DNA of 64,000 nt, from the NCBI RefSeq assembly GCF_027812955.1, contig NZ_JAPYZV010000004.1:248001-312000 (forward strand), in the 5' to 3' direction. The stretch comes from Pedococcus sp. 5OH_020 (GTDB lineage: Bacteria; Actinomycetota; Actinomycetes; Actinomycetales; Dermatophilaceae). Shown in pieces: positions 697 to 17,350 of the stretch (the first letter of the stretch is position 1; the number at the start of each line of letters is the position of its first letter). A program made the translations under genes and the position numbers. The notes under the pieces are model-generated. The model saw only the letters and a program-made list of their open reading frames with translations, searched no databases and was not told the DNA's origin.

Positions 697-1031
697 GGTG
701 CACGGTCTTCCATTCCTTGGCAGGCGGGTCCCGCCGTTCACCCACAAGGAGGGACTGAAAGACACAGCAGATACGTCGCTCACTGGAAGTGGCCGTGGCC
801 TCACGAGCGTGGATGAGGCAACCGGCGCGCCGGTTGCCCGCTGCCGCTCTCCGTCTACCCGAGCACTCCTGCGCTCACGTCCACCCTCCGACGGTTGGAC
901 CTGCCCTGAACGGAGCCAGCCACCCACGCCGTGATCCCCGCAGCGGCGGCCTTCGTGAGGGCAGGCTGCGATGTATTTATCGGGCGTCCGACGGCTCTTC
1001 TTTGCAGGATCTGCCGACCCGAGGGTGAGCG
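697..1031. other. Intergenic region upstream of the 13-gene operon
   Basis: This 335-base gap separates the divergent lipase from the biosynthetic operon. Short frames in it look like noise. It should contain the operon promoter. A perfect 20-base palindrome lies at 818-837. A TTGGAC hexamer at 895-900 resembles a -35 box, but no convincing -10 partner was found at the usual distance. A purine-rich GAGGGTGAG just before 1032 can serve as ribosome binding site. Confidence 0.5.
818..837. promoter_or_regulatory. Perfect 20-bp palindrome, candidate operator
   Basis: The sequence GCAACCGGCGCGCCGGTTGC is a perfect inverted repeat with no spacer. It lies about 195 bases before the first gene of the operon. 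Dimeric repressors such as TetR or MarR types bind sites of this form, but no such regulator is encoded nearby. It is not followed by a T run, so a rho-independent terminator is less likely. The role is inference. Confidence 0.35.
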
Positions 1032-2165
1032 ATGAAACTACTGGAGAACGAGCGTGCGGCGCTACACATGTTCCTGCCCGGGCTTGACGAGTTCCTGTGC
1101 GGCGAGACGCTGACGGACCTGGAGAGCGCGCAGAGCAAGGGCATCGCCGCCTTCCGCGGCCATCGCGGCCCAGCGCTGCTCGTGCCGGCCGAACACTCGG
1201 GAAGCGGCGTGAGCGCGCTCGACGCCGTACGGGTGCAGCTCGCGATCGGCTCGCGCTCGCCGTCGCTGGCCGTCGCGACGACGATGCACCACTTCTCCGT
1301 CGCCAGCCTGGTCGCGCTCAGCGAGCTGTCCACCGGCATGGAGTGGATGATCCTCGAGGGTGTCGCCACCAACAACCTGCTGGTCGCCTCTGGCTTCGCC
1401 GAGGGTCGCGCCGGAGGCGCCATCCTGCAACCCACGATGCTGACCACGATGGTGGACGGCGGCGTCCGGGTGACTGGCGTCAAGCGACCGTGTTCGCTCG
1501 CGCGGTCCATGGACCTGCTGACGGCGAGCGTCCAGGTGCCGCGTCTGGACGGCAATGGAACCCAGCTGGCGGTCGCGCTCATCCCGGCTACCAGCGAGGG
1601 CATCGAGGTCACCCCGTTTTGGAGCACCTTCGCCCTCGCCGGCGCCGAGAGCGACCAGGTCAGCCTCACCGACGTCCTTGTGCCGAACGACTTGTTGGTG
1701 CGGACCGAGCTGCAGCCCGGTGAGCGGCTGGACGACGTGCAGACGACAGGGTTCGTCTGGTTCGAGCTGCTGATGATGGCGTCGTACCTCGGCGCCGCCG
1801 CGGCCCTGGTCGAGCGGGTCCTTGACAACGAGCGCGTGCCCGAGGCCGAGCGGGCCCGCATCGTCACCGACCTACTGGGAGCCGTCGCGGCCCTCGAGAA
1901 CATCGCGCGTCAGATCCCGGAGCGGCAGCGTGACCGCAACCTGCTGGCCGAGTCGCTCTTCGTCCGCTACGCCGTCCAGGGCGCGATCGCCCGGATCGTC
2001 CCGCAGGCGGTCGAGCTGCTCGGCGGGCTCAGCTTCATCAGCTCCGACGACACCGGCTACCTTGCCGCCGCGGTCAACGGGCTCGGCTTCCACCCGCCGG
2101 CACGCACCAAGATGGCGGCACCCCTGCTCGGCTACCTGGCCGGCGCACCTCTCGAGATCGCCTGA
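1032..2165 (+). CDS. Acyl-CoA dehydrogenase-fold flavoprotein, probable amine N-hydroxylase
   Basis: The 377-residue protein has the acyl-CoA dehydrogenase layout: a helical N-terminus, a central beta part (about 120-230) and a C-terminal helical bundle. The C-terminal stretch that in true dehydrogenases carries the conserved E-R-x-x-R-D-A pattern reads instead as ELLGGLSF, then DDTGYLAAAVNGLGFHPP. That pattern resembles the monooxygenase branch of the superfamily (VlmH-like amine N-hydroxylases) more than a desaturase. A flavin reductase four genes downstream could supply FADH2 or FMNH2, which supports a two-component monooxygenase. The proposed role is N-hydroxylation of an alkylamine. An alternative is alpha,beta-desaturation of the acyl chain, as for TamF in tambjamine biosynthesis. 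It is the first gene of the operon, with a GAGGGTGAG ribosome site before the ATG. Confidence 0.6.
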   Translation: MKLLENERAALHMFLPGLDEFLCGETLTDLESAQSKGIAAFRGHRGPALLVPAEHSGSGVSALDAVRVQLAIGSRSPSLAVATTMHHFSVASLVALSELSTGMEWMILEGVATNNLLVASGFAEGRAGGAILQPTMLTTMVDGGVRVTGVKRPCSLARSMDLLTASVQVPRLDGNGTQLAVALIPATSEGIEVTPFWSTFALAGAESDQVSLTDVLVPNDLLVRTELQPGERLDDVQTTGFVWFELLMMASYLGAAAALVERVLDNERVPEAERARIVTDLLGAVAALENIARQIPERQRDRNLLAESLFVRYAVQGAIARIVPQAVELLGGLSFISSDDTGYLAAAVNGLGFHPPARTKMAAPLLGYLAGAPLEIA

Positions 2166-2177
2166 AGGGGCATCCCC

Positions 2178-3239
2178 ATGCGAATCGCGCATCCCACCGT
2201 CCTGCTCACCGGGGCCTCCGGCGTCGTCGGCCGAGCCCTGATCGACGAGCTCAGCCCAGACCACCGGATCATCTGTCTGCGCCACCGCCGGGACCTCGCC
2301 GACCCGCGGGTCCACGAGGTCACCGGCTCTCTGGACGAGCCGCTTCTGGGGCTGACGCCGCACGACTACGACCGGCTGACCGCGGGGGTGGACCTGGTGG
2401 TCCATGCGGCGGCTGCGACGAACTGGAAGGCCAGCGCGGAGGCGATCAGGGAGACCAACGTCGCCGGCACCCGAGCGATGCTGGCGTTGGCGGAACGCGC
2501 GGATGCGCCCATGGTCTACGTCAGTACCGCGTTCGTCGCCAACCCTCCCGCCGGTGCCAACGGTCAGTTCGCCAGCGCACGCGCCTACATCGCCTCGAAG
2601 GCCGAGGCCGAGCAGAGCACCCGCGACAGCGCCGTTCCCACGGTCATCGTCCGGCCCTCGGTCGTGATCGGCGACTCCCGCGATGGCCACATGGCTGCCT
2701 TCCAGGGGCTGCACCGCGTGGCTGGGCTGATCGCCCAGGGCATGGTGCCACTGATCGCCTGCGACGAGGACGTACTGGTTGACACCGTCCCGCAGGACGT
2801 CGTCGCCGCCGCGATCGGGAGGGTGGTCCGCGAACGGCATACCGCGGGGGAGCTCTGGCTCACCGCAGGTTCGACCGCGATGACGGCGGGGGACATCTTG
2901 GGCAGCTCGTTGCGGCTCGGGCACGAGCTGGGGCTCGACCCGGCGGCACCGCGCTTCATCCCGGCTGAGGCGGTGGACCGGCTGTTGCTGCCGCTGATGG
3001 CCGACGCGATCAGCCCCGCGCTGCGGCAGATGTTCGCCGAGCTGCTGGAGATGACCTGGCTCTTCCAGATGCCCGCTGCACTGCCCACCTCCCTGCCTGA
3101 GCTGGGGCTCGGCGCCGCGGTGACGCGGCAGCGGCTGCAACGCGCCTTCGACCTGTCCCTGGGCTTCTGGGCCGACGTCAAGGGTCTGCGGCCCGCCTTC
3201 GGCGACGAGGACGCGGACGAGCCCGAGCTGGCGTCATGA
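2178..3239 (+). CDS. Fatty-acyl/thioester reductase, extended SDR (NAD_binding_4)
   Basis: The 353-residue protein belongs to the extended short-chain dehydrogenases. It has the nucleotide-binding motif TGASGVVG at residues 11-18, a YVSTAFV segment around 114-120, and the active-site Y-x-x-x-K as YIASKAEAE with Tyr137 and Lys141. The segment VRPSVVIGDS followed by G-H-M is characteristic of the male-sterility and thioester-reductase branch, which reduces acyl-CoA or acyl-ACP to aldehyde. It is a free-standing reductase with no carrier domain. The gene lies 12 bases after the ACAD gene and overlaps the aminotransferase by four bases. This fits aldehyde formation followed directly by transamination. 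NAD(P)H preference and chain length cannot be read. A simple sugar epimerase is less likely given the neighbours. Confidence 0.65.
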   Translation: MRIAHPTVLLTGASGVVGRALIDELSPDHRIICLRHRRDLADPRVHEVTGSLDEPLLGLTPHDYDRLTAGVDLVVHAAAATNWKASAEAIRETNVAGTRAMLALAERADAPMVYVSTAFVANPPAGANGQFASARAYIASKAEAEQSTRDSAVPTVIVRPSVVIGDSRDGHMAAFQGLHRVAGLIAQGMVPLIACDEDVLVDTVPQDVVAAAIGRVVRERHTAGELWLTAGSTAMTAGDILGSSLRLGHELGLDPAAPRFIPAEAVDRLLLPLMADAISPALRQMFAELLEMTWLFQMPAALPTSLPELGLGAAVTRQRLQRAFDLSLGFWADVKGLRPAFGDEDADEPELAS

Positions 3240-4498
3240 CCCTCCATTCGGCTCCCCCCATCGTGGACGTCACGGGCGGCCTGCTGGATACCTACCGCCG
3301 TCACCTGGGCGCCGGCCGCGCCGCCGTGGGGCAACTCCTCGGCGGGATGGTCGAGGTCGAGTCGTCCGGTGCCTGGATCAGGGTCGCGGACGGCCGGCGG
3401 TACCTGGACTTCGGCGGCTACGGGGTGTTCATCCTCGGTCACCGGCACCCCGTCGTCGTCGCTGCCGTGCACGAGCAGCTGGACCGCCACCCCCTCGCCA
3501 GCCGCACCTTCCTCGAGCCGGTCACGGCGGCGGCCGCGGGCGCCCTCGCGGAGACGACCCCCGAGGGCCTGGACCTCGTTCACTTCGTCAACTCCGGAGC
3601 CGAGGCCACCGAGGCGGCGCTCAAGCTCGCCCGGATCCACGGCTGCAGGTCGGTGATCACCACGACGTCCGGCTTCCACGGCAAGACCCTCGGGGCGCTG
3701 AGTGTCACCGCGAAGGCTGTCTACCAGCAGCCCTTCCGCCCGCTGCTCCCCGGAGTCACCGAGGTCGCCTACGGTGACCTGGGCCAGATGGAGGCTGCGC
3801 TGACAGGCGCTCCGGGACGAGCCGTCGTCATCCTCGAGCCGATCCAGGGCGAGGGCGGCGTGGTGATCCCGCCGGCCGGCTACCTCCGCGCGGTCGCCGA
3901 GCTCTGCCAGAGGACCGACGCCCTCTTCGTCATCGACGAGATCCAGACCGGCATGGGCCGGCTCGGCACCTGGTGGGGGATCGAGCCCGAGCACGTCGTG
4001 CCGGACATCCTGCTGGTGGGCAAGGGCCTGTCGGGCGGGGTCGTGCCGATCGCGGCCATGGTCGCCACGGAGCGGGCGTACGCGCCGTTCGCGAAGGACC
4101 CGTACCTACACACGTCCACGTTCGCCGGCTCGCCTCTGGCATGCTCGGCCGCCGTGGCGACCATCGCGGCCATCCACGACGAGGACATCGTGGGGCGCGC
4201 GAAACGGGTCGGCGCCCAGCTTCTGGAGAGCATGAGGGCGACCTGCCGGCAGCTGCGACCGGCCGGCCTGGTCGAGGTCCGCGGGCGCGGCCTGCTCATC
4301 GGCATCGAGTTCACCGACCCTGGCGCGGTGGGCGAGCTGGCCCTAGAGCTGGTCGAGCGCGGTGTCATCTCCTGCCACTCGCTCAACTCCTCGCGGGTGC
4401 TCCGCTTCACCCCTCCGGCAATACTCGATCAGAGCGAGATCGGGCAGTTCCTCACAGCCTTCGGCGCGGCAGTCGCTGCGCTCGGAACCGAAAGGTAG
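3236..4498 (+). CDS. Class III PLP-dependent aminotransferase
   Basis: The 420-residue protein matches the fold-type I class III (acetylornithine/GABA/omega-amine) aminotransferases in full length. Visible marks are the GAEATEAALKLAR segment that holds the cofactor phosphate, the PLP-ring binding stretch FVIDEIQTGMGR, and the Schiff-base lysine Lys263 in LLVGKGLSGG. Its ATG overlaps the reductase stop as ATGA, so the two are translationally coupled. The proposed role is conversion of the reductase's aldehyde product to a primary amine, as in tambjamine and related fatty-amine pathways. The amino donor is unknown. Use of an amino acid as the carbonyl partner, as in ornithine-type enzymes, cannot be excluded. 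Confidence 0.8.
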   Translation: MTLHSAPPIVDVTGGLLDTYRRHLGAGRAAVGQLLGGMVEVESSGAWIRVADGRRYLDFGGYGVFILGHRHPVVVAAVHEQLDRHPLASRTFLEPVTAAAAGALAETTPEGLDLVHFVNSGAEATEAALKLARIHGCRSVITTTSGFHGKTLGALSVTAKAVYQQPFRPLLPGVTEVAYGDLGQMEAALTGAPGRAVVILEPIQGEGGVVIPPAGYLRAVAELCQRTDALFVIDEIQTGMGRLGTWWGIEPEHVVPDILLVGKGLSGGVVPIAAMVATERAYAPFAKDPYLHTSTFAGSPLACSAAVATIAAIHDEDIVGRAKRVGAQLLESMRATCRQLRPAGLVEVRGRGLLIGIEFTDPGAVGELALELVERGVISCHSLNSSRVLRFTPPAILDQSEIGQFLTAFGAAVAALGTER

Positions 4499-4502
4499 AG
4501 CC

Positions 4503-4976
4503 ATGCCCAACGTCACGATCCACCTGCACGCGCCGGCGGTCGACCATCTCCAGGCCTACGCGCGGGTCAGCGACTTCGCCCGCTATCCGGGCCTCGTCGA
4601 GACGGTTCGACAGGTCGTCGTCGAGGAGCCCGAGACCGACGGCTCGGTCGTGTCCAGCTGGACGGTCGCCTTCCGTAACGGCCTGCTGCAGTGGACCGAA
4701 CGCGATGTGCTCGACCGGGTGGCCAACACGATCACCTTCACTCAGCTCAAGGGCGACTTCCACAGATTCAGCGGGCAGTGGCGGATCAGCCCGGCCGCGA
4801 ACGGCGGCACCGTCGTCGCCTTCGATGCAGCGTTCGACCTCGGCATAGCGAGTCTGGAGGCGATCCTCAACCCGATCGCGGAGAGGACGCTGCGCAGCAA
4901 CATTCGGCTGATCGTCCAGGGCCTGCTCGGCGAGGTCGCCGAGGTCGTCCCCTCCCCGGGCCGGTCGGGGCCGTGA
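4503..4976 (+). CDS. SRPBCC (START/COQ10-like) protein
   Basis: The start is placed at the ATG at 4503, four bases after the aminotransferase stop, because upstream in-frame residues overlap that gene and look like noise. The 157-residue product resembles polyketide cyclase/dehydrase and COQ10-type START proteins. It has an N-terminal beta strand, a segment FARYPGLVETVRQV typical of the family's first helices, a central sheet (WTVAFRNGLLQWTERD) and a long C-terminal helix. Such proteins bind hydrophobic ligands in a deep cavity, sometimes as cyclases and sometimes as carriers. In this operon it may hold or present the lipid-like intermediate. No catalytic residue can be assigned. Confidence 0.65.
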   Translation: MPNVTIHLHAPAVDHLQAYARVSDFARYPGLVETVRQVVVEEPETDGSVVSSWTVAFRNGLLQWTERDVLDRVANTITFTQLKGDFHRFSGQWRISPAANGGTVVAFDAAFDLGIASLEAILNPIAERTLRSNIRLIVQGLLGEVAEVVPSPGRSGP

Positions 4977-5479
4977 TGTGGGGCGCCGAGCTCGCGGAGG
5001 GCGGCCCCGGGCTCTCCAGATCGCTGAGCCTCTACCGACGGCTGGCGGCCGGGGTCAGCGTGGTCACGGCCCGCGGTGACGACTCTGCCGCTGCGCTCAC
5101 GGGGATGACGGCCTCGTCCGTGACGTCAGTGTCGCTGCGGCCCGCCCTGCTGCTCGTGTCGGTGGCCAACGGCTCGCGGACGCTTGCCGCGATCCGCTCC
5201 CGGCGGGCCTTCGCCGTGCACCTGCTGCGGGAGGACCAGCGGGACCTGGCGCGCCGGTTCGCGGCACCGGGTGACCGCCAGGTCAGCGATCGGGCCGTGC
5301 GAACCGTCCTGGGTGTGCCCGTCTTGACCGACGTGCTCGCCTGGTCGGTCTGCCTGCTCGAGGCGGAGCACGCCCACGGCGACCACACCCTGGTCATCGG
5401 TGCCGTTGCCGCCACGCACATCGGAGTCGGCCGCCCCTTGCTCTGGCACGACCAGGCGTTCGCCGAGCTGGCCGGCTAG
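4976..5479 (+). CDS. Flavin reductase (HpaC/VlmR-like)
   Basis: The ATG at 4976 overlaps the preceding TGA by one base, which decides the start over the longer upstream frame. The 167-residue product is a flavin reductase-like FMN-binding split-barrel protein. Marks are YRRLAAGVSVVTA at the N-terminus, the TGMTASSVTSVSLRPALLLV flavin-binding block, and a C-terminal HGDHTLVIGAV segment. These enzymes use NAD(P)H to make free reduced flavin for a partner monooxygenase. The natural partner here is the ACAD-fold protein encoded at 1032-2165, giving a VlmR/VlmH-like pair. It could also serve the PHBH-fold enzyme at the operon's end, although those usually reduce their own flavin. Confidence 0.8.
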   Translation: MWGAELAEGGPGLSRSLSLYRRLAAGVSVVTARGDDSAAALTGMTASSVTSVSLRPALLLVSVANGSRTLAAIRSRRAFAVHLLREDQRDLARRFAAPGDRQVSDRAVRTVLGVPVLTDVLAWSVCLLEAEHAHGDHTLVIGAVAATHIGVGRPLLWHDQAFAELAG

Positions 5480-5538
5480 CTCGGAAAGCCGGTTCAGCCA
5501 CCGACCAGCTCTTCGCAGAAGAACCGAGAGGAACCTGC

Positions 5539-6483
5539 ATGGACAACGACGGCACGCACGGCAACCAGACGTCCAACGACGGCTCGCCCCAGACGTCCGC
5601 AGGCGCGTCCCTGCTCGGTGCGCCGTTCCGCGAGATCGCGGTCAGTGGTGGCCGGATCCGCTACCGGCGGCTGGGGTCAGGTGTCCCGCTGCTGTTCGTC
5701 CACGGGGTGTTCGTCAACAGCGACCTGTGGCGCACCGTGGTCCCTCTGCTCACCGACCGCTTCGACTGCGTGGTGCTCGACCTACCCCTCGGCTCCCACT
5801 CTCTGCCGATGGACCCGAGGGCCGCGCTGTCGCCGGGTGACCTGGCTGCCATCCTCGCGCAGATCATCGAGGCGCTCGACCTCGGCCCGGTGCGCATCGT
5901 GGCCAACGACAGCGGTGGCGCGCTCGCGCAGATCCTGACCAGCCGCCGGCCCGACCTGGTGCACTCGATGGTCCTGACGTCCTGCGACACCTACGACTAC
6001 TTCTTCCCCCCGCTGTTCCGCACGCTGCCGATCGTCGCACGGATCCCCGGGGCGATCGCGGGACTGGCGCAGGCCTTGCGGCTGCGCTGGTTCCGCGCGC
6101 TGCCGATCGCCTACGGCTGGGTGACGGTGTCGCCGATCGCCGACGAGACGATGGACTCCTACATCCGGCCGATGCGCCAATCCGCCGCGGTCCGAGCCGA
6201 TCTGGCCTCGGTGCTCAAGGATGTCCGGCCGCACTACACCCTCGATGCGATGGAGCGGCTGCGGACGTACGACGGCTCGGTCCTGCTCGTGTGGGGCGAG
6301 TACGACAAGGTGTTCCCGCTCTCGCATGCCCGACGTCTGGCTGCCGACCTGAGAAACGCCGCGCTGGTCACCCTGCCGGGCGCGGGTGCGTTCGTCCCGG
6401 AAGACGCCCCGGTGAGACTTGCCGAGCTGATCGGCCGGTTCTTCGGGGACCCGGTCTCCGGGCCGCCTCGGACGGAGGGCTAG
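5539..6483 (+). CDS. Alpha/beta hydrolase with Asp at nucleophile position and missing His
   Basis: The 314-residue protein has a clear alpha/beta hydrolase core: oxyanion motif FVHGVFVNSDLW with His55, a nucleophile elbow IVANDSGGALAQ, and a late acidic motif VWGEYDKVFP. Two features are odd. The elbow places Asp124 where Ser is usual, as in haloalkane dehalogenases and epoxide hydrolases. The usual catalytic histidine in the G-A-G-H-F-V-P-E motif is replaced by Ala284 (codon GCG). With no histidine there, normal hydrolysis should fail, so the protein may be non-hydrolytic or structural. A first ~30 residues rich in Asn, Ser and Thr precede the domain. A GAGAGG ribosome site lies before the ATG, after a 59-base gap that may hold a secondary promoter. 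Confidence 0.75.
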   Translation: MDNDGTHGNQTSNDGSPQTSAGASLLGAPFREIAVSGGRIRYRRLGSGVPLLFVHGVFVNSDLWRTVVPLLTDRFDCVVLDLPLGSHSLPMDPRAALSPGDLAAILAQIIEALDLGPVRIVANDSGGALAQILTSRRPDLVHSMVLTSCDTYDYFFPPLFRTLPIVARIPGAIAGLAQALRLRWFRALPIAYGWVTVSPIADETMDSYIRPMRQSAAVRADLASVLKDVRPHYTLDAMERLRTYDGSVLLVWGEYDKVFPLSHARRLAADLRNAALVTLPGAGAFVPEDAPVRLAELIGRFFGDPVSGPPRTEG

Positions 6484-6485
6484 CG

Positions 6486-8879
6486 ATGGCCACCTCCACC
6501 ACAACAGCCACGTCGCTGCGCTCCAAGCGCCGCGCTCGGGCCGTGCTGCTGGTCGCCCTACTGTTCCTCCTGGTCGGTGCCGGAGCATCGCTGGACCTCG
6601 GTGAGCACCTCGGCGTGGGCGGCTTCTATGCCCCCGGCGACGAGTCCACGCGGGCCGATGCCGCGCTGAACGTCGGCCTGCCGGCAGGACCGCACAACCT
6701 CGTGGTCCTCGCCCAGGCCAACAACGGAGTAAGCGTGGACTCGGTCGGCGCCAGCGCGGGTGGCCTTGCCCTGACCACGTACCTGACGGGCCAGCAGGGC
6801 ATCTCGTCGGTCGTGTCGTACTGGACCACCAAGGACCCGAGCCTGCGCTCGACCGACCGGCGGACGGCTTTGATCCTGGCGCGGATCACCGGCAACGAGG
6901 ATCAACGCAAGGCCACCCTGCTGCGGCTGCTGCCCCGGATCCACGGTGAGCACGGGGCGCTCTCGCTCAAGCTCGGCGGCCAGCCCGCCGTGGAGCGGGA
7001 GGTGACCACGCGCAGCCAGCAAGACCTGCACCGAATGGAGCTGCTCGCCACCCCGGTCGTGGCCGTCATCCTCGTCCTGGTCTTCGGCAGCCTGGTGGCG
7101 AGCCTACTGCCGCTGGTGATCGGCCTCGCGGCCATCGTGGGCACCCTGGTGACCCTACGCGTGCTGACGATCTTCACCCACGTCTCGATGTACTCCCTCA
7201 ACATCGCCACCGCGCTCAGCCTCGGCATGGCGATCGACTACGGGCTGTTCATCGTGACGCGCTACCGCGAGGAGCTCGACACCGGCGCCTCGGTCTCGTC
7301 TGCAGTGTCCACGACGATGGCGACCGCCGGCAGGACCGTGCTGTTCTCGGCCATGACGGTCGCGCTGTCCCTGGCCTCCGTTCTGGTGTTCCCGCTGTAC
7401 TACCTGCACTCGTTCGCCTACGCCGGTATCGCGGTCGTCGCCTTCGCCGCCCTGAGCGCCGTCGTTGTCCTTCCCGCCGTGCTGACCCTGCTGGGCCGGC
7501 GGATCGACCGCTGGGACGTCCTGAGCGGACTGCGCATCGTGCGCGGCCAGAGCCACGGAGTCCACAGTCCCGTGGGCAAACGCAGGCCGCTGCGGTCGGG
7601 TGGCCGGCTGAGTCGCGCCGGTGTCGGGCGCTGGCACCAGATCGCGATGCTCGTCATGCGCCATCCGGTCCCGTTGCTCGTTGGCGGGGTGATGCTTCTG
7701 CTGGTCCTGGCCATGCCGTTCCGTGGAGTGCAGTATGCCCTGCCCGACGAGTCGAGCCTGCCGAAGAACAGCGAGAGCCATCACGTCAGCCAGGTGTTGA
7801 GCAATGGTTTCCGCCCGTTGGCGACCGACTCGATGTACGTGGTCTCGCCCGGCCATCGGCTCAGTCCCGGGCAGACCCGGGACTACGCGACGGCGGTCTC
7901 AGAGGTGACCGGGGTGTCGCAGGTGCAGTCGTCCGTGGGCACCTTCGTCCGCGGGCACCTGGTAGCTCCAGCCGCGCCACAGGTGGCGGCCCGGTTCGAC
8001 GGCGCCACGGCCTCCTGGCTCAGCGTGGGGCTGCAGGGCGATGCGCAGGGGCTCACCGCACAGGCAGCGGTCAAGCGCGTCCGGTCCGTTGTCGCGCCCG
8101 AACCGGTCCTGGTCGGCGGCAACGCCGCCCATCTCGTCGACACACGCCATACCCTCAGCGGCGCCCTGCCCTGGGCGCTGTCGATCGTCGCCCTCTCCAC
8201 GATGGTGCTGCTCTTCCTGTTCACCGGAAGCGTCGTGATCCCCGTCAAGGCTGTGCTGATGAGCCTGCTCAGCCTGACAGCGACCTTTGGCGCAGTGGTC
8301 TGGATCTTCCAGGAGGGGCACCTGCGATGGCTGCTCGGCGACTTCCAGACCAACGGCGCGCTCGAGATGACGACCCCGATTCTGTTGTTCACCCTAGCCT
8401 TCGGGCTCTCGATCGACTACGAGCTCTTTCTCCTCTCACGCATCAAAGAGGAGTACAGCAGGCTCAGGGACAACACAGCCGCGGTTGCCAACGGGCTGGA
8501 ACGCACCGGGCGACTGGTCACCTACGCAGCGCTTCTCTTCGTGATCGTCATGGTCAGCTTCGCCGCCTCGGGACTCAGTGTCCTGAAGCTGGTCGGCGTC
8601 GGCCTGGGGCTCGCGGTCTTCATGGACGCGACGGTGGTCCGGGCGATCCTCGTGCCGGCCGTCATGCGGCTCGCGGGCACCGCCAACTGGTGGGCACCGG
8701 GCCCCTTGCGAGCGCTGCACCAGCGCATCGGACTGCGCGAGGGGCCTGCCTCACCTGCCGTCCTCGGAGCCAGTAGCGAAGCCGGCGGGCAGCACCTCCG
8801 ATCGATGCGCCCGAAGGACGACATCCCACAGCTGACCTTCCAGTCACGACCACTAGGAGCAGACCATGGACCCGCGTAA
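6486..8879 (+). CDS. MMPL/RND-family lipid transporter
   Basis: The ATG at 6486 lies two bases after the hydrolase stop and gives 797 residues; an in-frame upstream start would overlap that gene. The protein has the duplicated RND/MMPL layout: TM1 near residues 16-37, an extracytoplasmic domain, a six-helix block with LGMAIDYGLFIVTRYREE, a second extracytoplasmic domain, and a second helix block with LSIDYELFLLSRIKEEY. The paired D-Y motifs are the proton-relay signature of MMPL proteins, which export lipids and lipid-linked metabolites using the proton gradient. Its place inside the operon suggests that it exports the product and that the product is lipophilic. The 3' end overlaps the next gene by 14 bases. 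Confidence 0.85.
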   Translation: MATSTTTATSLRSKRRARAVLLVALLFLLVGAGASLDLGEHLGVGGFYAPGDESTRADAALNVGLPAGPHNLVVLAQANNGVSVDSVGASAGGLALTTYLTGQQGISSVVSYWTTKDPSLRSTDRRTALILARITGNEDQRKATLLRLLPRIHGEHGALSLKLGGQPAVEREVTTRSQQDLHRMELLATPVVAVILVLVFGSLVASLLPLVIGLAAIVGTLVTLRVLTIFTHVSMYSLNIATALSLGMAIDYGLFIVTRYREELDTGASVSSAVSTTMATAGRTVLFSAMTVALSLASVLVFPLYYLHSFAYAGIAVVAFAALSAVVVLPAVLTLLGRRIDRWDVLSGLRIVRGQSHGVHSPVGKRRPLRSGGRLSRAGVGRWHQIAMLVMRHPVPLLVGGVMLLLVLAMPFRGVQYALPDESSLPKNSESHHVSQVLSNGFRPLATDSMYVVSPGHRLSPGQTRDYATAVSEVTGVSQVQSSVGTFVRGHLVAPAAPQVAARFDGATASWLSVGLQGDAQGLTAQAAVKRVRSVVAPEPVLVGGNAAHLVDTRHTLSGALPWALSIVALSTMVLLFLFTGSVVIPVKAVLMSLLSLTATFGAVVWIFQEGHLRWLLGDFQTNGALEMTTPILLFTLAFGLSIDYELFLLSRIKEEYSRLRDNTAAVANGLERTGRLVTYAALLFVIVMVSFAASGLSVLKLVGVGLGLAVFMDATVVRAILVPAVMRLAGTANWWAPGPLRALHQRIGLREGPASPAVLGASSEAGGQHLRSMRPKDDIPQLTFQSRPLGADHGPA

Positions 8880-9384
8880 CCTCTTCTTCACCCCGACCAC
8901 CTACCGGTTGATCCGGTCGGAGTACCTCGCCGGCCTGGTGGTCTGCACCGCGCTCGCCCTGACCCATGTCGGGCAGCTGCGCTGGCCAGTGTTCGTCGGG
9001 CTGTTCCTCTACATCGACGTGATCGGTTACCTGCCCGGGGTCATCGCGCACAAGCGTTACCGGACCGCCTACCTGCCTCGCGTGTACTACGTGCTGTACA
9101 ACACCATGCACAGCCTGACCAGTGCCAGCATCGTGGCCGGCCTCTGGTGCCTGTTGGTCCGCCCCGAGTGGGCGCTGTTGGCCCTGCCGCTGCACCTGTT
9201 CGGTGACCGGGCCCTGTTCGGCAACTTCTACAAGTCTTTCGGCATCGAGTTCGAGCCGAGCGCGCACCCGGACTACGCGCAGGCCAAGCCGCTGCTGGAT
9301 CGCCCGCGCCGGACCCTGACCATTGCCGCGTCCGCCCGGTCGGACGGGCTCGCCACCGTGGCCGCAGCCTCGAAGGTGGCATGA
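8866..9384 (+). CDS. Small His-containing integral membrane protein, candidate N-N bond former
   Basis: The 172-residue protein has about four hydrophobic segments (roughly residues 20-34, 41-60, 86-98, 102-113) and a soluble C-terminal tail. Polar residues sit at helix ends: His34, Asp51, His62, His82, His110 and Asp114 in LHLFGDRALFGN. That could be a metal-binding or catalytic set in the membrane. The gene overlaps the MMPL gene by 14 bases and the aminoacyl transferase by four, so it is tightly coupled to the latter. In valanimycin biosynthesis a membrane protein, VlmO, turns the O-seryl hydroxylamine into the hydrazine. Homology of this protein to VlmO could not be tested here. Function is therefore inference, and the family was not recognised with certainty. 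Confidence 0.55.
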   Translation: MDPRNLFFTPTTYRLIRSEYLAGLVVCTALALTHVGQLRWPVFVGLFLYIDVIGYLPGVIAHKRYRTAYLPRVYYVLYNTMHSLTSASIVAGLWCLLVRPEWALLALPLHLFGDRALFGNFYKSFGIEFEPSAHPDYAQAKPLLDRPRRTLTIAASARSDGLATVAAASKVA

Positions 9385-10400
9385 TGAGCGCCGTCCCGCT
9401 GCTCGACGGGAGCGAGCTGCTGGGCACGCTGCGCAGGCAGGCGCAGAACCCGTCCTCGTTCCTGGCTCTCAACGACGGGAACGAGTTCTTCCGCGCAGCC
9501 GGTATCGACGGGGTCGTCGCCTACCGCTCGATCGGCCGCCGGTACTGGGTCCAGTTCGCCGGGCCCTGCGCGGCGGCGAACGAGCGGGTACACCTGTGGC
9601 GGCTGTTCCTCGACGCGGCCGACGCCGCCAACCGCCGGGTGATCGGCGTGCAGCTGCACGCCGACGACGCCAGGGCAGCGGTGGACACCGGGTTCACGGT
9701 GAACCAGTTCGGCTCGTCGTACAGCATCGACCTGTCCGACTTCACGCTGAAAGGCCACGCCTTCGTCAAGACCCGCAACATGATCATGCGGTCCCGGCGT
9801 GAGGGCGTCACCATCGCTGAAGCAGGAGTCGACGTGCCGGACGACGAGGCGCTGGACGCCGAGCTGCGCCGGATCGACCACACCTGGCTGCGGAACAAGG
9901 GCTGGCACACCCGCGAGCTCACCTTCCTGGTCGGTCAGCGAGGGGGCCGGTTCCAGTCCGCGCGGCGACTCTTCGTCGCGCGCCGGGAGGGAGCGGTGGT
10001 CGGCTACGTCTCCTACTCCCCGGTCTTCGGCGACCGACCGGGGTGGCTGTACGACCTCACCCGCCGCGGCCCGGACGCACCTCCTGGAGTGATCGAGCAC
10101 ATCTTCTTCGAGGCCGCGCAGCGGCTCGCGGCCGACGGAGCCGCGTGGCTGCACCTCGGGCTCACCCCCTTCGTCGGGCTCGACGCCGAGCACACGCTCC
10201 AGGGTGGATCCCACGCGGTCGTGGACCGGCTGATGCACTGGATCGGCAGCAACGGGTCCTGGCTCTACCCGTCGGCCGGACAGGTCGCGTTCAAGCTCAA
10301 GTGGCGGCCCCAGCTGACCACTCCGGAGTACGTCGCCGTGCCGGGGCGTCCTCGACTACGCGACGGGCTCAGCCTGGCCCGCGCGACGAATGCGCTGTGA
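9381..10400 (+). CDS. DUF2156/MprF-type aminoacyl-tRNA-dependent transferase (VlmA-like)
   Basis: The 339-residue soluble protein matches the C-terminal catalytic domain of phosphatidylglycerol lysyltransferases (DUF2156, tandem GNAT fold). Visible family traits are KTRNMIMRSRREGV near residues 131-144, LFVARREGAVVGYVSY near 196-211, and GWLYDLTRRGPDAPPGVIEH starting at 221, followed by WLHLGLTPF. The multi-pass flippase half of MprF is absent. Soluble members include VlmA, which moves serine from seryl-tRNA onto an alkylhydroxylamine oxygen. With an N-hydroxylase pair in the same operon, that role fits here. Which aminoacyl-tRNA is used cannot be read, and no extra seryl-tRNA synthetase is encoded nearby. 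The ATG overlaps the previous stop as ATGA. Aminoacylation of a lipid head group is the alternative. Confidence 0.7.
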   Translation: MMSAVPLLDGSELLGTLRRQAQNPSSFLALNDGNEFFRAAGIDGVVAYRSIGRRYWVQFAGPCAAANERVHLWRLFLDAADAANRRVIGVQLHADDARAAVDTGFTVNQFGSSYSIDLSDFTLKGHAFVKTRNMIMRSRREGVTIAEAGVDVPDDEALDAELRRIDHTWLRNKGWHTRELTFLVGQRGGRFQSARRLFVARREGAVVGYVSYSPVFGDRPGWLYDLTRRGPDAPPGVIEHIFFEAAQRLAADGAAWLHLGLTPFVGLDAEHTLQGGSHAVVDRLMHWIGSNGSWLYPSAGQVAFKLKWRPQLTTPEYVAVPGRPRLRDGLSLARATNAL

Positions 10401-11815
10401 CTCCATGCCTGATCTGATCGAGCCCGAGACAGCACCTATCTGGTGGTGGGGGACAGCGACGACCCCCCTGCGGCCGAGCCTGGCCGGGGACGCGAAGGCC
10501 GACGTCCTGGTCGTCGGCGCCGGACTGGCCGGCACGGCGACCGCGTACTTCCTCGCGCGACAGCGGCCAGACCTGGAGGTACTTCTGATCGACGCCAGCC
10601 AGGTCGGACTGGGCGCCACCGGGCGGAGCACCGGCATCGTCGGGCCGGGCCTGAGCGCGCCGCTGCGTTCGATGCGCCGCCGCTATGGCGACCCGGTGAC
10701 CGCCGCCGCGTTCGCAAGCACGGTGGCCGGTGTCACGGAGCTCGGCCGGCTGATCCAGTCGGAGCGGATCGACTGCGACGCCCGGTTCGAGCGGCAGACG
10801 ATCTGCGCCCTGACCAGCCAGCAGGAGCGCCGGATGCGCCGGCACACGGCGGATCTTCGCGACCTGGGTCTCTCCGGCCGATGGCTCGCTGCGGGCGACC
10901 TGCGCCGCAGCGTCGGAGGGTTCTACCGGGCCGGTTTCGCCTACGACGACGTTCTTCTCGTCGACCCCTACCGGTTGGTCACCGGCCTGGCGGCCGCGGC
11001 AGAGCGGCGCGGCGTCCGAGTCCTCGAGCGCACCCGCGTCCACCGCATCCAGCCGGATGGCGACCAGGTCCTCGCGCACACCCCGGCAGGCACCATCCGG
11101 GCCGGACAGGTCCTCCTCGCGGTGGACGGCTACGGCGACGAGCTCAACCCTCACCCGTCGTCGGTCGTCCCGCTGCGCACACATGTCGTCGCCACCGCGC
11201 CGCTGACACCGGTGGAGCGGGAAGCATTGGGCTGGAACGGCTTCGGCGGCGTCATCGACCAGCGCAACTTCTTCAGCTACTACCGCCTGGGTGTCGATGA
11301 CCGGCTGATCTTCGGCGGGGGACCGGCACTGGTCGCCAGTGGAGACCCACGCCGTGACGCCCTCGGGTCTGCAGCCGTGTTCCGGCGCGTCGTGGAGGAG
11401 ATGCACCAGCGGTTCCCAGCGGTGCGCGACGTCCCCGTCGAAGCCCGGTGGTCGGGCCTGACCGGTGCCACGCTCGACCGGCTGCCCATCGTCGGTCCGG
11501 TAGGGGGCTCGTGGGGGGGGCTGCCGGGTGCACTTCGCGGGTGGCTGGTGCGGCCACGGGCTCGCGATGTGCGTCTCCACCGCGCTGCGCTACAGCAACG
11601 TGCTCGCCGGTGGGGGGTCGCCTACCGACGCGTTGCCGTGGTCGCGCAGCAGCACGGCGGGCGTCCCCTCCGCGTTGCTGCCCTCCCGCGGGCTGCCCGC
11701 CTACCTGCGGGCGATGGACCTACAGGACCGCGTCTCGCTCGCCCTGTCGCCGCATCACCCGGCCCTTGCTGTGCGGCCGTCAGCCCTCTCGACCCATACG
11801 AGGAGATCGTCATGA
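10390..11815 (+). pseudogene. FAD-dependent amine/amino-acid oxidase (DAO family), frameshifted in a G8 run
   Basis: The N-terminal 374 or so residues read in one frame: Rossmann motif VVGAGLAGTATAYFLA near 41-56 and a late RWSGLTGATLDRLPIVGPV motif typical of DAO oxidases. At a run of eight G (11513-11520) the frame breaks. The expected C-terminal motif VHFAGGWCGHGLAM continues in the next frame from 11528 and stops at TGA 11813-11815. That stop overlaps the next gene's ATG as ATGA, which shows that the second frame is the genuine end. With seven G the gene would be whole. As written, translation would run on into the isomerase gene to give an odd 701-residue fusion. Start may be 10390 or 10405. 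The enzyme could oxidise an amine or hydrazine intermediate. The shift may be a sequencing error, a true mutation or a phase-variable tract. Confidence 0.75.
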
Positions 11816-12495
11816 AGACCGACTACCTGCCCCTCATGCTCGAGGAGAGCCGAGACCTGGCAACGCTGCTCGACGCCCTCGACGACGCGCAGTGGCACGC
11901 GTCCTCACTGTGTGCGGGGTGGCGGGTCAAGGACGTGGTCGCACACATGGCGGTCGGTCACTCCATGTCCGTCCTGGCGTTCGGGGCCGCTGTGGCGCGG
12001 CACCGGTTCTCCGTGGACGCGACCTCGCTGACGCTGGCGAGGTCATTCGCGGAACGGCACTCGGAGCGGCAGGTGCTGGATCTGTTCGTCGCCGGGACCA
12101 GCGGACCGCCACGTGCCTCCGCGCGGTTCGTCCCCGTCCACGAGCTGTTCACCGACCACCTCGTGCACCACCAGGACATCCGGCGCCCCCTCGGTTTGCA
12201 CCGCGAGATCCCGTCAGGCCGCCTGCTGGCGGCGTTGGAGTCGCTGCCCCGGCTGAGCTCGCGCATCGGCAGCCGCAAGCGGATGTCGGGCCTGAGGGTG
12301 GTGGCGAGTGATGTCGAGTTCGACTCAGGCGCGAGCGGACCCGAGCTGAGGGGACCGGCCGAGGCCCTGGTGATGACGCTGACCGGTCGCCGTGCAGCGC
12401 TCGAGGAGCTTAGCGGCCCCGGCGTCGAGGTCCTCGCCACGAGGGTGTCCGGCTCGCCGCACCGGCTGGGCTCCAGTCCCGCCCCACGCGCCTGA
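11812..12495 (+). CDS. Maleylpyruvate isomerase-family (mycothiol-dependent, DinB-like) protein
   Basis: The 227-residue protein shows the TIGR03083-type pattern. An N-terminal helix bundle carries WHASSLCAGWRVKDVVAHMA, where Cys-x-Gly-Trp and the His of VAHMA are typical. A second helix has ELFTDHLVHHQDIRRPLG, whose histidines complete the three-His zinc site of DinB-fold proteins. Family members use mycothiol as cofactor for isomerisation, conjugation or detoxification. In this operon it may process or detoxify a reactive intermediate such as a hydrazine, azo or epoxide species; that is inference. Its ATG at 11812 overlaps the oxidase stop. In the uncorrected sequence it lies in the same frame as the start of the oxidase gene, so the two appear fused. 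Confidence 0.75.
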   Translation: MKTDYLPLMLEESRDLATLLDALDDAQWHASSLCAGWRVKDVVAHMAVGHSMSVLAFGAAVARHRFSVDATSLTLARSFAERHSERQVLDLFVAGTSGPPRASARFVPVHELFTDHLVHHQDIRRPLGLHREIPSGRLLAALESLPRLSSRIGSRKRMSGLRVVASDVEFDSGASGPELRGPAEALVMTLTGRRAALEELSGPGVEVLATRVSGSPHRLGSSPAPRA

Positions 12496-12565
12496 CCGCA
12501 CGCCACCAGACCTCACCGCCGAGCCCCGCCCACCCGACACCACCCGACCAGAACAGGAACTTCTC

Positions 12566-13048
12566 ATGCGCACCATACGACTTCGCACGGCACTTCGCGC
12601 CGGGCTGGTGATGCTCGTCCTCGAGGCCGTCACGATCGGCGTCCAGGCTCTCTTCTTCCCGATGTACTTCTACCAGAAGTTCCTCTTCGGACGCGGCTGG
12701 GTCGCGATGATGCCGCCTTACAACGAGCACATCACCCGAGACCTCGGGGCGCTGTACCTCGGCTTCGGCGTCGTCCTCGGGTATGCCGCGGTCAAGATGT
12801 CACGAGACCTGTTCAACGGTGCGGTGGCAAGCTTCGTCGTGGCCACGATCCCGCACATGACCTTCCACGCCGCCCACACCGACATGGCGCCGCAGCTGCT
12901 GGACAAGGTCCTTCAGGTGGGGGCCCTCGCCCTCACGGTCGCTCTGGGGCTCGCGATGATGTACCTCGGGCGGGGGTACTTCCGGTCGAGCGATGCCACG
13001 ACTGCCCCTGCGCAGGCCCACACGTCGACTCAGGGCGCCCTCCGGTGA
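12566..13048 (+). CDS. Four-helix integral membrane protein of unknown function
   Basis: The ATG at 12566 follows a GGAA ribosome site; longer upstream reading overlaps the isomerase gene and looks random. The 160-residue product has about four transmembrane helices (near 11-30, 52-72, 82-98 and 112-132) and a hydrophilic tail rich in Ala and Thr. Between helices it holds YNEHITRDLGALYLGFG and HMTFHAAHTD, with several His and acidic residues that could bind a metal or ligand. It resembles small uncharacterised actinobacterial membrane proteins. It could help export or anchor enzymes, or be an alternative candidate for the membrane-bound N-N forming step. It overlaps the following monooxygenase gene by four bases. 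No specific function is recognised. Confidence 0.6.
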   Translation: MRTIRLRTALRAGLVMLVLEAVTIGVQALFFPMYFYQKFLFGRGWVAMMPPYNEHITRDLGALYLGFGVVLGYAAVKMSRDLFNGAVASFVVATIPHMTFHAAHTDMAPQLLDKVLQVGALALTVALGLAMMYLGRGYFRSSDATTAPAQAHTSTQGALR

Positions 13049-14358
13049 CCGGTCCCAGCCCCTCGCTGGACACCCAGCCCTTCGACGTCGTCATCGTGGG
13101 CGGCCGGGTCGCCGGATGCGCCATGGCGATCAGGTTGGCCCGGTCCGGGCTGTCGGTGGCACTCGTGGAGCGGGACCCGGTCCCCAGCGAGACGCTGTCG
13201 ACCCACCTGATCCAGGATGTGTCGCTCTTCGCGGAGCTGGGCGTGCTCGGTGAGGTGATGGCCTGCGGCGCACCGCCGCTGCGTGAGGTCAGCATCCATC
13301 TGGAGGATGCCGACCTGTCGGCAGCGACGGCGGACCGGCCCTGGCTGTGCCTACGCCGGATCTCGCTGGACGCGGTGCTCCACCGCGCCGCGCGGGACGC
13401 CGGCGCCGAGGTGTTCGCGCAGACGGCCGTGGTGGACGCACTGTGGTCCGGTGGGCGGGTCAACGGCGTCGTCGCGCAGCGGCCGGACGGCACCCGAGTC
13501 GCACTCAGCGCACGCATCGTCGTCGGCGCCGACGGCCGCAACTCAACGGTGGCCAGGCTGGTGGGCGCCGAGCGCTACGACGTGCGGCCGAACGAGCGGA
13601 CGGCATTCTGGGGGTACTTCGCCGGTATCCCGATGCCCAACGTCTTCCACCTGGCGCGGCGTGGGCGGGACATGATCCTGGTGGCACCGTGTGATGACGG
13701 CATGACGCTCGTGGCCGGGCAACCGCCCCTGGACGACCACCGGGACTGGCGTGACCCCTCAGTGCTGGTGTCGGTCGCCAGTCAGCTCATCGGGCCGCTG
13801 AGGGGCACCATCGACGAGTCCAAGCTCGTGGGGGGCATGCGCAGCGTCCGCCGGATGGACGGGTTCTTCCGTCCAGGAGCCGGGCCGGGCTGGGCTCTGG
13901 TCGGAGACGCCGGTCACTTCAAGGACATCGTGGTCGGACAGGGGATCTGCGACGCCCTCCGTCAGGCGCGAGGGCTGTCCCGCTGCCTCACCAAGGAGTC
14001 GCTCCGGGACCCTGCACGGCTCGACCCGGCCCTGAACTCCTGGTGGCGCGAGCGGGACGCCGATGCCCGGCCGATGTCCTGGCTCGCCCAGGATCTCGGC
14101 CGGGTGCAGACGACGGTGTTGGACCACGAGCTCCTGCGGGTGCTCGCAGGGTCGACCCGGCATCGGCGGCACTTGCAGGACGTGCTCGCCCGCCACCGCC
14201 GGCCTGCTCATGTCGTCGGCCGCGCCGTGCAGAGCCAGGCGCTGGCCAGAGCGGCGCTGCGCGCATCGAGAGCCGACCTGCGGGACGCCGTCAGCGGAGC
14301 CCTCGGGAGGGAGCGCGACCGTCTGTCCGTGGGCCGCCGGGCGACCTTTGACACCTGA
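13045..14358 (+). CDS. FAD-dependent monooxygenase, PHBH fold
   Basis: The gene starts with GTG at 13045, overlapping the previous stop as GTGA. The 437-residue product shows the three marks of the p-hydroxybenzoate hydroxylase/geranylgeranyl reductase superfamily: a dinucleotide motif FDVVIVGGRVAGCAMA near the N-terminus, a central GADGRNSTVARLVG, and the late GWALVGDAGHFKDIVVGQG with the FAD-ribityl Asp. The C-terminal 90 residues are an Arg-rich helical extension. Relatives hydroxylate, epoxidise, halogenate or saturate lipophilic substrates. As the last gene of the operon it may tailor the alkyl chain or oxidise the N-N unit in place of a VlmB-type diiron oxidase; this is speculation. It should reduce its own flavin with NAD(P)H. 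Confidence 0.8.
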   Translation: MTGPSPSLDTQPFDVVIVGGRVAGCAMAIRLARSGLSVALVERDPVPSETLSTHLIQDVSLFAELGVLGEVMACGAPPLREVSIHLEDADLSAATADRPWLCLRRISLDAVLHRAARDAGAEVFAQTAVVDALWSGGRVNGVVAQRPDGTRVALSARIVVGADGRNSTVARLVGAERYDVRPNERTAFWGYFAGIPMPNVFHLARRGRDMILVAPCDDGMTLVAGQPPLDDHRDWRDPSVLVSVASQLIGPLRGTIDESKLVGGMRSVRRMDGFFRPGAGPGWALVGDAGHFKDIVVGQGICDALRQARGLSRCLTKESLRDPARLDPALNSWWRERDADARPMSWLAQDLGRVQTTVLDHELLRVLAGSTRHRRHLQDVLARHRRPAHVVGRAVQSQALARAALRASRADLRDAVSGALGRERDRLSVGRRATFDT

Positions 14359-14438
14359 GCGATCGACTCCTGTATCAGGCGAGGTTCGCGGACCCTCCTT
14401 CCGACGATGGGCCGCGACGACCAGCCGAGGAGGTCAGA

Positions 14439-16199: not shown

Positions 16200-16376
16200 C
16201 GACGGCCGCCGCCACGAGCCGCCGGACGCCGAGCCGGCTGATGGTGTATCAGCGAGGCAAGAGGGCGCTCTTTGATCCATTGGACGACGGGCTGCCCAGC
16301 GTGAGTCGCCGTCGGTCGCAACCCATCACAAGCAGTCCCAGAAGGCCAGTCAACCGGTGTTGCTCAGGAGGTCCCC

Positions 16377-16895: not shown

Positions 16896-17212
16896 GCCGG
16901 GCAACGCACGGCCCTGTGACCAGTGGTGCCGAAGCCATCTGGTCGGTGAAGAAGGCCTGGCGTGGTCAGGGGCGTGACCCAGTCAGTGACAAGGGCATCG
17001 GATCTCGCACCACACCGGAGGACGGTGGCCGACCCCTTTGTGCTCAATCAGGCTCACAGGAGACGCCTTGAGGAGTGTCGGACGCTCAGGTCCTCGGCGC
17101 GGCCCGACGAATCCCTTCCAACGGCAGCGGGTACCTCAGAGATGGCGTCATCGTCCACCTCCAGCAGCGTGGGGTTGGCGGTGCCGTCCCTGGGGCGCAA
17201 CACCTGGAGCTC

Positions 17213-17232: not shown

Positions 17233-17350
17233 ACCAAACGCGGGCTCCCCGCTCACCCGGGTGGGGGAAGTGGCCTACGACACTGCGGTGCAACGATGAA
17301 GTTGTCACGCCCGCCACCACCACCCCCAGCCTGGCGGGCCGTCGACCAGC

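Follow-up and report, generated by a model that had tools for sequence, protein, structure and literature searches.

The closest described systems are the valanimycin (vlm) and azodyrecin (ady/azd) clusters. The azodyrecin clusters of Streptomyces supply a fatty amine by fatty acyl reduction and a PLP transaminase, carry VlmH/R, VlmA and VlmO homologues, and have no private aminoacyl-tRNA synthetase; they also encode a VlmB (Ady8), the methyltransferase Ady1 and the desaturase Ady9, and a weak DUF4260 match was reported for Ady6 (PMC9379638). Published accounts describe aliphatic azoxy clusters as consistently pairing VlmO with a VlmB homologue (PMC11705231, PMC9379638). PMC11705231 reports D51, H82, H110 and D114 as essential VlmO residues. 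It also describes DAO homologues from other N-N pathways: hydrazine intermediates are the reported substrates of Spb39 and Apy10, with Apy10 attacking the C-alpha-N bond of an alanine-derived hydrazine, and Tri27 is named as belonging to the same family.

The locus studied here probably encodes an N-N pathway of the valanimycin/azodyrecin type that works on a lipid substrate and lacks VlmB, with a DAO-family flavoprotein in its place. It lies in a 64,000-nucleotide stretch of DNA (the window), where positions 1032-14358 hold 13 genes, all on the plus strand, with short gaps or overlaps between neighbours (Table 1). Families were assigned by Pfam and NCBIfam profile searches of the 13 translated genes, and Pfam concurs with the gene families named in the original prediction. 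A scan of positions 1-16000 against Rfam at the gathering threshold gave no match, and a tRNA scan of the whole window found none.

Table 1. Features of the operon, with roles assigned by similarity
Feature	Position	Strand	Basis
VlmH-like flavin-dependent amine N-hydroxylase, ACAD fold (P0001)	1032..2165	+	homology, VlmH grouping
Thioester reductase-type fatty acyl reductase	2178..3239	+	PF07993 NAD_binding_4/thioester reductase, E 4e-37; TIGR01746 below cut-off
Class III aminotransferase	3236..4498	+	PF00202; aldehyde-to-amine role inferred
SRPBCC lipid-binding-type protein	4503..4976	+	PF03364; start checked
VlmR-like flavin reductase	4976..5479	+	PF01613
Alpha/beta hydrolase, no role assigned	5539..6483	+	PF00561
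MMPL-family exporter	6486..8879	+	PF03176; best NCBIfam model MmpL3, below cut-off
VlmO-like membrane hydrazine synthase	8866..9384	+	homology and residues D51, H82, H110, D114
VlmA-like aminoacyl-tRNA:hydroxylamine transferase, DUF2156/LPG_synthase_C	9381..10400	+	PF09924, E 3e-53
DAO-family flavoprotein, N-terminal and middle part; VlmB slot after VlmA	10390..11514	+	PF01266
DAO reading-frame interruption, G-rich run	about 11500..11530	+	profile match changes frame
DAO C-terminal part, other frame	11504..11740	+	DAO profile positions 376-447
MDMPI/DinB-type (mycothiol-dependent-like) enzyme	11812..12495	+	PF11716 MDMPI_N; TIGR03083 E 2e-25, above cut-off
Small membrane protein	12566..13048	+	no Pfam match at E<=0.001
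PHBH-fold (group A) FAD monooxygenase, candidate azo N-oxygenase	13045..14358	+	PF01494 FAD_binding_3, E 2e-18

The operon shares the azodyrecin logic and departs from it in its oxidases. Both systems combine acyl reduction, transamination and an N-N core without a private synthetase, so the original prediction of an unfamiliar gene composition is only partly borne out (PMC9379638). By Pfam, none of the 13 genes corresponds to Ady8, Ady1 or Ady9, and the operon adds DAO, MDMPI, PHBH and MMPL genes. With valanimycin it shares the VlmH, VlmR, VlmA and VlmO homologues and the VlmO catalytic residues; in contrast, the 13 genes include no VlmB, decarboxylase, VlmJ/VlmK-type gene or, as predicted, VlmL-type seryl-tRNA synthetase, and the substrate is probably lipidic, where valanimycin uses a valine-derived amine. 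The N-N bond is made by a MetRS-cupin synthetase in the Spb39 and Apy10 pathways, whereas this operon has VlmA and VlmO; Pfam detected neither a SidA-type N-hydroxylase nor a MetRS/cupin hydrazine synthetase among the 13 genes. We found no published description of a VlmB-free DAO variant in the literature open to search.

Homology and synteny establish that the N-N set is real, with its activities inferred. The predicted VlmH, VlmR, VlmA and VlmO assignments held against clusters that carry annotated "VlmB-like protein" genes, a valanimycin-like one (L013) among them. The VlmH-like protein is 45% identical to the VlmH-position gene of L013 and 66-67% identical to its counterparts in L104 and L105. 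Its single Pfam match is the acyl-CoA dehydrogenase middle domain, below cut-off. NCBIfam matches are mixed and all far under cut-offs (L-prolyl-carrier-protein dehydrogenase and PigA, then SfnB, DszC and HsaA), and six PDB sequences match at E<=0.001: two carry the name acyl-CoA dehydrogenase type 2 domain protein, and the other four are of the DszC type. Grouping with true acyl-CoA dehydrogenases would have refuted the prediction; in our tree the protein clusters with VlmH-position proteins, and it is not one of the 15 PF00441 matches in its own genome. We relied on that tree for its VlmH side alone: its ACAD rows were chosen mechanically, as the longest open reading frame over the middle of each locus, and several have odd compositions or very long branches and are possibly off-frame.

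The flavin reductase is 43-60% identical to those of DAO units, about 29-38% to those in most VlmB loci, and 36% to the reductase encoded next to the S. cacaoi PHBH gene. The VlmA-like protein is 44% identical to the VlmA-position gene of L013. The VlmO-like protein keeps all four essential residues at the same positions as VlmO, and they are invariant in 40 of 40 aligned sequences, its own included. It shares 45-65% identity with 38 homologues and 30% with L014. This protein barely reaches DUF4260 (E 0.0085, below cut-off); its structure is predicted with moderate confidence (pLDDT 73), and the model has no PDB relative at E<=0.001. We give almost no credence to an MprF-like lipid aminoacylation operon without N-N chemistry: the DUF2156 protein does resemble the MprF C-terminal part (below the model cut-off) and MprF-type PDB chains, but it sits with adjacent VlmH and a VlmO bearing all four residues. 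VlmH genes occur in 17 of the 19 listed DAO units in the DNA examined, which also answers the concern that neighbours of such DUF2156 proteins might never include N-hydroxylases. In L046 and L086, VlmH and the aminotransferase are absent from the fetched DNA, a point against the VlmB-free reading.

DAO and VlmB exclude each other across VlmO loci. Among 95 VlmO-anchored units listed, 72 have VlmB, 19 have DAO, none has both and 4 have neither. These counts cover the matches listed (80 of 221 VlmO loci) and leave out L109, a wrong stretch. DAO matches lying on VlmA in L004, L031, L042 and L050 were false, produced by an out-of-frame query extension, and were excluded. The DAO occupies the slot normally held by VlmB: in the units listed, it immediately follows the flavin reductase in 12/19, VlmA in 5/19 and the SRPBCC gene in 2/19, and VlmB follows the flavin reductase in 56/72 VlmB units. 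Clusters with a "VlmB-like protein" have similar gene sets and order, and S. purpureus L071 has the same core with VlmB instead of DAO.

No VlmB match turned up elsewhere in this genome. The original prediction had noted no clear VlmB diiron oxidase; we searched window positions 1-20000 and the whole genome without a match, and positive controls worked. An ordinary azoxy cluster, its VlmB overlooked or located elsewhere and its DAO an unrelated tailoring enzyme, is thus largely refuted here and very unlikely overall. VlmB does occur outside the fetched cluster in 5 of 17 other DAO genomes, but the other 12 gave no match, no listed unit has both oxidases, and the DAO sits in the oxidase slot. 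A 339-residue protein shared by eight DAO units was considered as a hidden divergent VlmB and rejected: it has no Pfam match and, on reading the alignment, no VlmB-like metal motif.

Exchange between VlmB and DAO seems to have happened more than once, indeed several times. In a tree built from VlmO, VlmA and VlmH, the grouping of all DAO units into one clade is rejected (AU p 1.8e-7), with 5 label changes, and the inference of repeated exchange rests on this phylogeny.

The DAO frame of this operon is interrupted. The frame opening at 10390 breaks at the G-rich run, and the conserved C-terminus continues in another frame; a single reading frame spanning 10390-12495 was therefore rejected as an out-of-frame run from DAO into the separate MDMPI gene. 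Whether the break is a sequencing error or marks a dead gene is undecided, and the DAO protein is therefore possibly not made, which counts against the VlmB-free reading. A horizontally acquired, degenerate cluster that yields no product or stops at the hydrazine would also account for the long branch of this DAO (in a tree without outgroup), the upstream transposase gene, and the lack of VlmO in all 97 relatives searched, 10 congeners included. We consider this unlikely: all 12 remaining genes have open frames, and several overlap at their ends; the break coincides with G runs, which are sites of assembly errors; and in S. cacaoi, where DAO is open, the MDMPI, membrane protein and PHBH families occur as well. 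That uncharacterised S. cacaoi NBRC 12748 locus (L016) further shares VlmO, VlmA, VlmH, aminotransferase and SRPBCC genes. It differs in gene order and, in the DNA examined, has an aldehyde dehydrogenase match and no thioester reductase match.

The preferred VlmB-free reading implies a pathway inferred in every reaction, in its amino acid, chain length and final functional group. The thioester reductase would release a fatty aldehyde, which the class III aminotransferase would convert to a fatty amine. Pfam confirms both predicted enzyme families; the long-chain alkylamine product, substrate and chain length are inferred. VlmH/VlmR-like proteins would N-hydroxylate the amine, the VlmA-like transferase would add an amino acid from charged tRNA (serine or alanine by analogy), and the VlmO-like protein would turn the aminoacyl ester into an N-alkyl hydrazino acid. 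Judging from its apparent substitution for VlmB, the DAO is inferred to carry out a two-electron oxidation of this hydrazine to an azo compound or the tautomeric hydrazone. Oxygen may then be added by the PHBH-fold monooxygenase in this sub-type, yielding an azoxy group, and the MMPL protein would export the lipid product.

The DAO might instead break a bond. No enzyme of this DAO type has, to our knowledge, been characterised. Structure prediction places the S. cacaoi DAO nearest to glycine oxidase, proline dehydrogenase and sarcosine oxidases, and enzymes with such folds work by oxidising a C-N bond in N-substituted amino acids. This resemblance and the reported hydrazine substrates of Spb39 and Apy10 also count in favour of the preferred reading, in which the DAO oxidises the hydrazine. 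We could not convincingly map the carboxylate-binding residues known from glycine oxidase onto this DAO, so they offer no argument on substrate binding. Cleavage of the hydrazine C-N bond, as reported for Spb39 and Apy10 (PMC11705231), would give a long-chain alkylhydrazine and a keto acid, or a hydrazino acid and an aldehyde, and the pathway would end in a lipid hydrazine or hydrazide instead of an azoxy compound. We hold this possible but on balance doubtful; it shares its first steps with the VlmB-free oxidation reading, and the likelihoods of the two overlap. The nearest folds and the lack of a universal oxygenase in the listed DAO units speak for it, but replacement of VlmB in otherwise alike clusters suggests a similar next intermediate, and oxygenases are enriched in DAO units. 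Although an N-alkyl hydrazino acid is the expected substrate of this flavoprotein, as of Spb39, Apy10 and Tri27, the flavoprotein forms at best a distant subfamily, and its Spb39-subfamily membership is not clear. The DAO profile gave no HMM match at E<=1e-3 to the Spb39-like protein of L110, whose label rests on its gene neighbours; only profile comparison links the two (hhalign probability 96%).

Separate oxygenases are more common in DAO units than in VlmB units. Among the units listed, a P450 or group A flavin monooxygenase occurs in 15/19 DAO against 7/72 VlmB units, and the group A profile in 5/19 against 0/72. This enrichment, together with mutual exclusion, backs the earlier suggestion that DAO and PHBH stand in for VlmB. 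The oxygenases may be tailoring enzymes, since their kinds are unrelated, DAO units supplied most of the seeds for the profiles, and neither L104 nor L105 gave a match to them. A broader proposal is quite possible yet tentative: a glycine/sarcosine oxidase-fold DAO and a separate monooxygenase (PHBH-fold, halogenase-like FMO or P450) repeatedly replaced VlmB, forming a second, independently evolved hydrazine-azo-azoxy route, here on a lipid.

If true, the use of an unrelated flavoprotein for VlmB would uncouple the making of the N-N bond from that of the azoxy group and provide an enzyme candidate for hydrazine oxidation. VlmO with DAO and without VlmB would serve as a mining rule, marking clusters likely to yield azo, hydrazone or hydrazine lipids. 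Repeated oxidase exchange makes the question testable by a one-gene swap.

Accessory genes vary among these clusters. Beyond the window, and in the DNA examined, the MDMPI enzyme, the small membrane protein and this PHBH family were each found only in S. cacaoi L016. In the units listed, MMPL genes occur in 7/19 DAO units versus 2/72 VlmB units; a search for MMPL in other DAO genomes returned many paralogues and was uninformative. The SRPBCC family is present in 17/19 DAO and 59/72 VlmB units listed. The aminotransferase is 48-65% identical to those of related clusters and about 40% identical to those of two Paraburkholderia clusters.

The oxidases VlmB and DAO exclude one another among clusters anchored on the hydrazine synthase VlmO. 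A VlmO-alignment scan of genome contigs found 221 relatives; the best 80 of 221, chosen by likeness to the window, with 12 others and the window itself gave 93 loci, in which oxidases were called by profile searches over every ORF of 60 codons or more. The first tally gave VlmB in 72, DAO in 13, both in none and neither in 8. Among those 8, DAO lay about 6 kb downstream in L003 and L004 and was truncated by the contig end in L038. L106, which carries thioester reductase, SRPBCC and DAO genes, is probably a second contig for L078, a link that is inference only; the genomes of L037 and L028 each contain a further, complete DAO cluster (L104, L105). The final tally over 95 units, still from the best 80 of 221 plus others, was 72 VlmB, 19 DAO, 0 both and 4 neither (L014, L027, L028, L037). 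The Fisher p of 2e-16 overstates the exclusion because the clusters are related and the best 80 were picked by likeness to the window.

The window's own cluster comprises 13 genes whose spacing and overlaps are compatible with a single operon. As originally predicted, it lacks a clear VlmB: the VlmB query found no match in the whole genome, and the same query recovered VlmB from the two control genomes, each of which is represented in the query alignment by a row. Among the 17 other DAO genomes, five carry VlmB outside the fetched cluster DNA and 12 gave no full-length match. The window's DAO reading frame is broken at a G-rich run, its C-terminal part resuming in another frame; a sequencing error cannot be distinguished from a real break.

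Coordinates of features in the window and in related loci
Locus	Positions	Feature
Window	1032-14358 (+)	Operon: VlmH-like, thioester reductase, class III aminotransferase, SRPBCC, flavin reductase, alpha/beta hydrolase, MMPL, VlmO-like, VlmA-like, DAO, MDMPI, small membrane protein, PHBH-fold monooxygenase
Window	~11500-11530	DAO frame break
Window	14439-16199	Solute-binding domain fused to von Willebrand A domain, immediately 3' of operon; membership not established
Window	17471-20311	Adjacent Glycosyl hydrolase 32 and alpha-amylase genes, downstream of operon
L027	9555-13092	VlmH-AT-SRPBCC-VlmO-VlmA, then opposite-strand ORF close to end of contig; oxidase not found, although its closest relatives carry VlmB there
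L037	6228-10525	Aldehyde dehydrogenase-aminotransferase-SRPBCC-VlmO; VlmA, VlmH, VlmB and DAO absent from fetched DNA
L028	6297-10528	As L037, aldehyde dehydrogenase by position only; contig ends nearby
L046	10001-13850	VlmO-VlmA-SRPBCC-FR-DAO; VlmH and class III aminotransferase absent from fetched DNA
L086	10001-13844	As L046
L070	14674-15693	339-344 residue protein
L046	16188-17222	339-344 residue protein
Six more DAO units		339-344 residue protein
L014	13777-16620	Solitary VlmO homologue, MMPL transporter adjoining (small Pseudoalteromonas plasmid)

The rest of the N-N core is present. The window's VlmO-like protein carries the residues that a review (PMC11705231) lists as essential for VlmO (D51, H82, H110, D114) at identical positions, and none varies across 40 of 40 aligned VlmO-type sequences or in a smaller alignment (n=11). 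Against L013 (Streptomyces sp. NBC_00212), a locus we labelled valanimycin-like, with serS, ilv genes, a decarboxylase, VlmJ/K-like genes and a 'VlmB-like protein', window proteins show 45% (VlmH), 51% (VlmO) and 44% (VlmA) identity. The window's flavin reductase (FR) had no tblastn match in L013 at E<=1e-4; it matches flavin reductases of other clusters. The solitary L014 homologue is 30% identical and keeps all four catalytic residues.

The first protein of the operon, P0001, groups with VlmH-position proteins. Its best NCBIfam models were prolyl-carrier-protein dehydrogenases, scoring far under cut-off among mixed weak matches, and its PDB matches were DszC-type chains plus two named 'acyl-CoA dehydrogenase type 2 domain'. 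The prediction that it is VlmH-like and not a true acyl-CoA dehydrogenase was not refuted: P0001 is not among the 15 PF00441 matches of its own genome, and in a tree of 12 of those 15 loci with 17 VlmH-position proteins it clusters with four of the latter (support 100/100). All 17 fall on one side of a single branch (85/85) in this tree, several of whose ACAD rows are poor.

DAO sits in the position that VlmB usually takes, and the two seem to have been exchanged more than once. The gene immediately before DAO is flavin reductase in 12, VlmA in 5 and SRPBCC in 2 of the 19 units; before VlmB it is flavin reductase in 56, VlmO in 9 and VlmA in 6 of 72, VlmA also preceding one more at a distance. 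S. purpureus L071 reads VlmO-VlmA-VlmB-VlmH-TER-AT-SRPBCC-FR (TER, thioester reductase; AT, class III aminotransferase), and seven DAO units read VlmO-VlmA-VlmH-TER-AT-SRPBCC-(FR)-DAO or pieces of it. A concatenated VlmO+VlmA+VlmH tree under a mixture model (37 rows: the 19 DAO units in full, plus 18 VlmB units hand-picked from the 72 for spread) required five oxidase-label changes, four forced by starred branches, and rejected the 19 DAO units as one group (AU p 1.8e-7). A 90-row FastTree of all units with two of the three proteins again gave five changes, four forced. L036, L038, L070, L075 and L094 nest within VlmB clusters with good support; the long branches of L016 (S. cacaoi NBRC 12748) and L092 leave individual placements in the tree unsure. 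In the DAO tree, DAOs of actinobacterial clusters form a group (83/85, not starred) that excludes nine further DAOs from genomes in the set; the two Paraburkholderia DAOs stay unresolved, two label changes are needed and the root is not known. One or two recruitments of DAO, followed by transfer between clusters, are therefore possible.

DAO units differ from VlmB units in their companion genes. In the DNA examined, P450 profiles matched 10/19 DAO and 7/72 VlmB units and group A flavin monooxygenase profiles 5/19 and 0/72; either occurs in 15/19 versus 7/72 (Fisher p 8e-9). This enrichment is optimistic for three reasons: DAO units supplied most of the profile seeds, the units are related to one another, and the DNA read averaged 26 kb for a DAO unit against 20 kb for a VlmB unit (overlaps counted). 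A sixth flavin monooxygenase, in an extension of L003 not given to VlmB units, was left out; a contig end cuts the L087 cluster. L104 and L105 matched neither profile; both encode a metallo-beta-lactamase fold protein (L105 by similarity), and L104 also an MFS transporter. Genes of serS, VlmJ and VlmK type occur in 0/19 DAO units versus 31, 15 and 17 of 72 VlmB units, respectively. Thioester reductase (8/19 versus 2/72), MMPL (7/19 versus 2/72) and aldehyde dehydrogenase (7/19 versus 49/72) also differ. MDMPI, membrane protein and PHBH families together are common only to the window and L016 in the DNA examined. A 339-344 residue protein and a P450 co-occur in the same 8/19 DAO units; the protein is in 0/72 VlmB units and had no Pfam match in the two copies scanned (L070, L046). 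L046 and L086 may use a different N-hydroxylase.

In the pathway proposed for azodyrecin (PMC9379638), acyl reduction, transamination and N-hydroxylation lead to an aminoacyl transfer that has no private synthetase, after which VlmO/VlmB homologues take over. The window encodes a protein for every step as far as the hydrazine. For a modelled DAO from L016 (pLDDT 79), the nearest structures are glycine oxidase, proline dehydrogenase and sarcosine oxidases. The substrates that these enzymes oxidise are amino acids, N-substituted in many cases, and the expected VlmO product would likewise be an N-substituted amino acid. The DAO homologues Spb39 and Apy10 are reported to take hydrazines as substrates and to cleave them (PMC11705231). 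By model and analogy, then, a hydrazine oxidase role for DAO is reasonable. Oxidation could stop at the azo compound, form a hydrazone or cleave the hydrazine, which is not decided. The oxygenase enrichment favours an azo product that is then oxygenated; the Apy10 precedent and the lack of any single oxygenase universal among DAO units favour a hydrazine outcome.

DAO replacing VlmB was not described in the literature searched, including the accessible parts of PMC11705231, PMC13061610, PMC13274452 and PMC12945691. PMC9379638 reports VlmB/O/R genes as highly conserved near VlmA and names more than fourteen groups; its main text, supplement excluded, mentions Trp-halogenase-like genes and not DAO. 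Novelty is provisional, since central papers in JACS, ACS Chem Biol and Angew lie outside the literature covered.

The operon was likely acquired horizontally. A VlmO search of 97 relatives, 10 congeners included, found no match, 3/396 genomes in a phylum sample matched, counting the window's own, and a transposase gene (HTH_38, rve; locus L005) lies 0.6-1.9 kb before the window start. We take this transposase to be IS30-like. Elsewhere, on linear Streptomyces plasmids (L009, L011, L012, L110), a VlmB-type cluster lies beside an apparent second, hydrazinoacetate-type N-N pathway with FAD oxidoreductase and class I tRNA ligase genes; a SidA-type monooxygenase was seen in L110, the continuation of L011.
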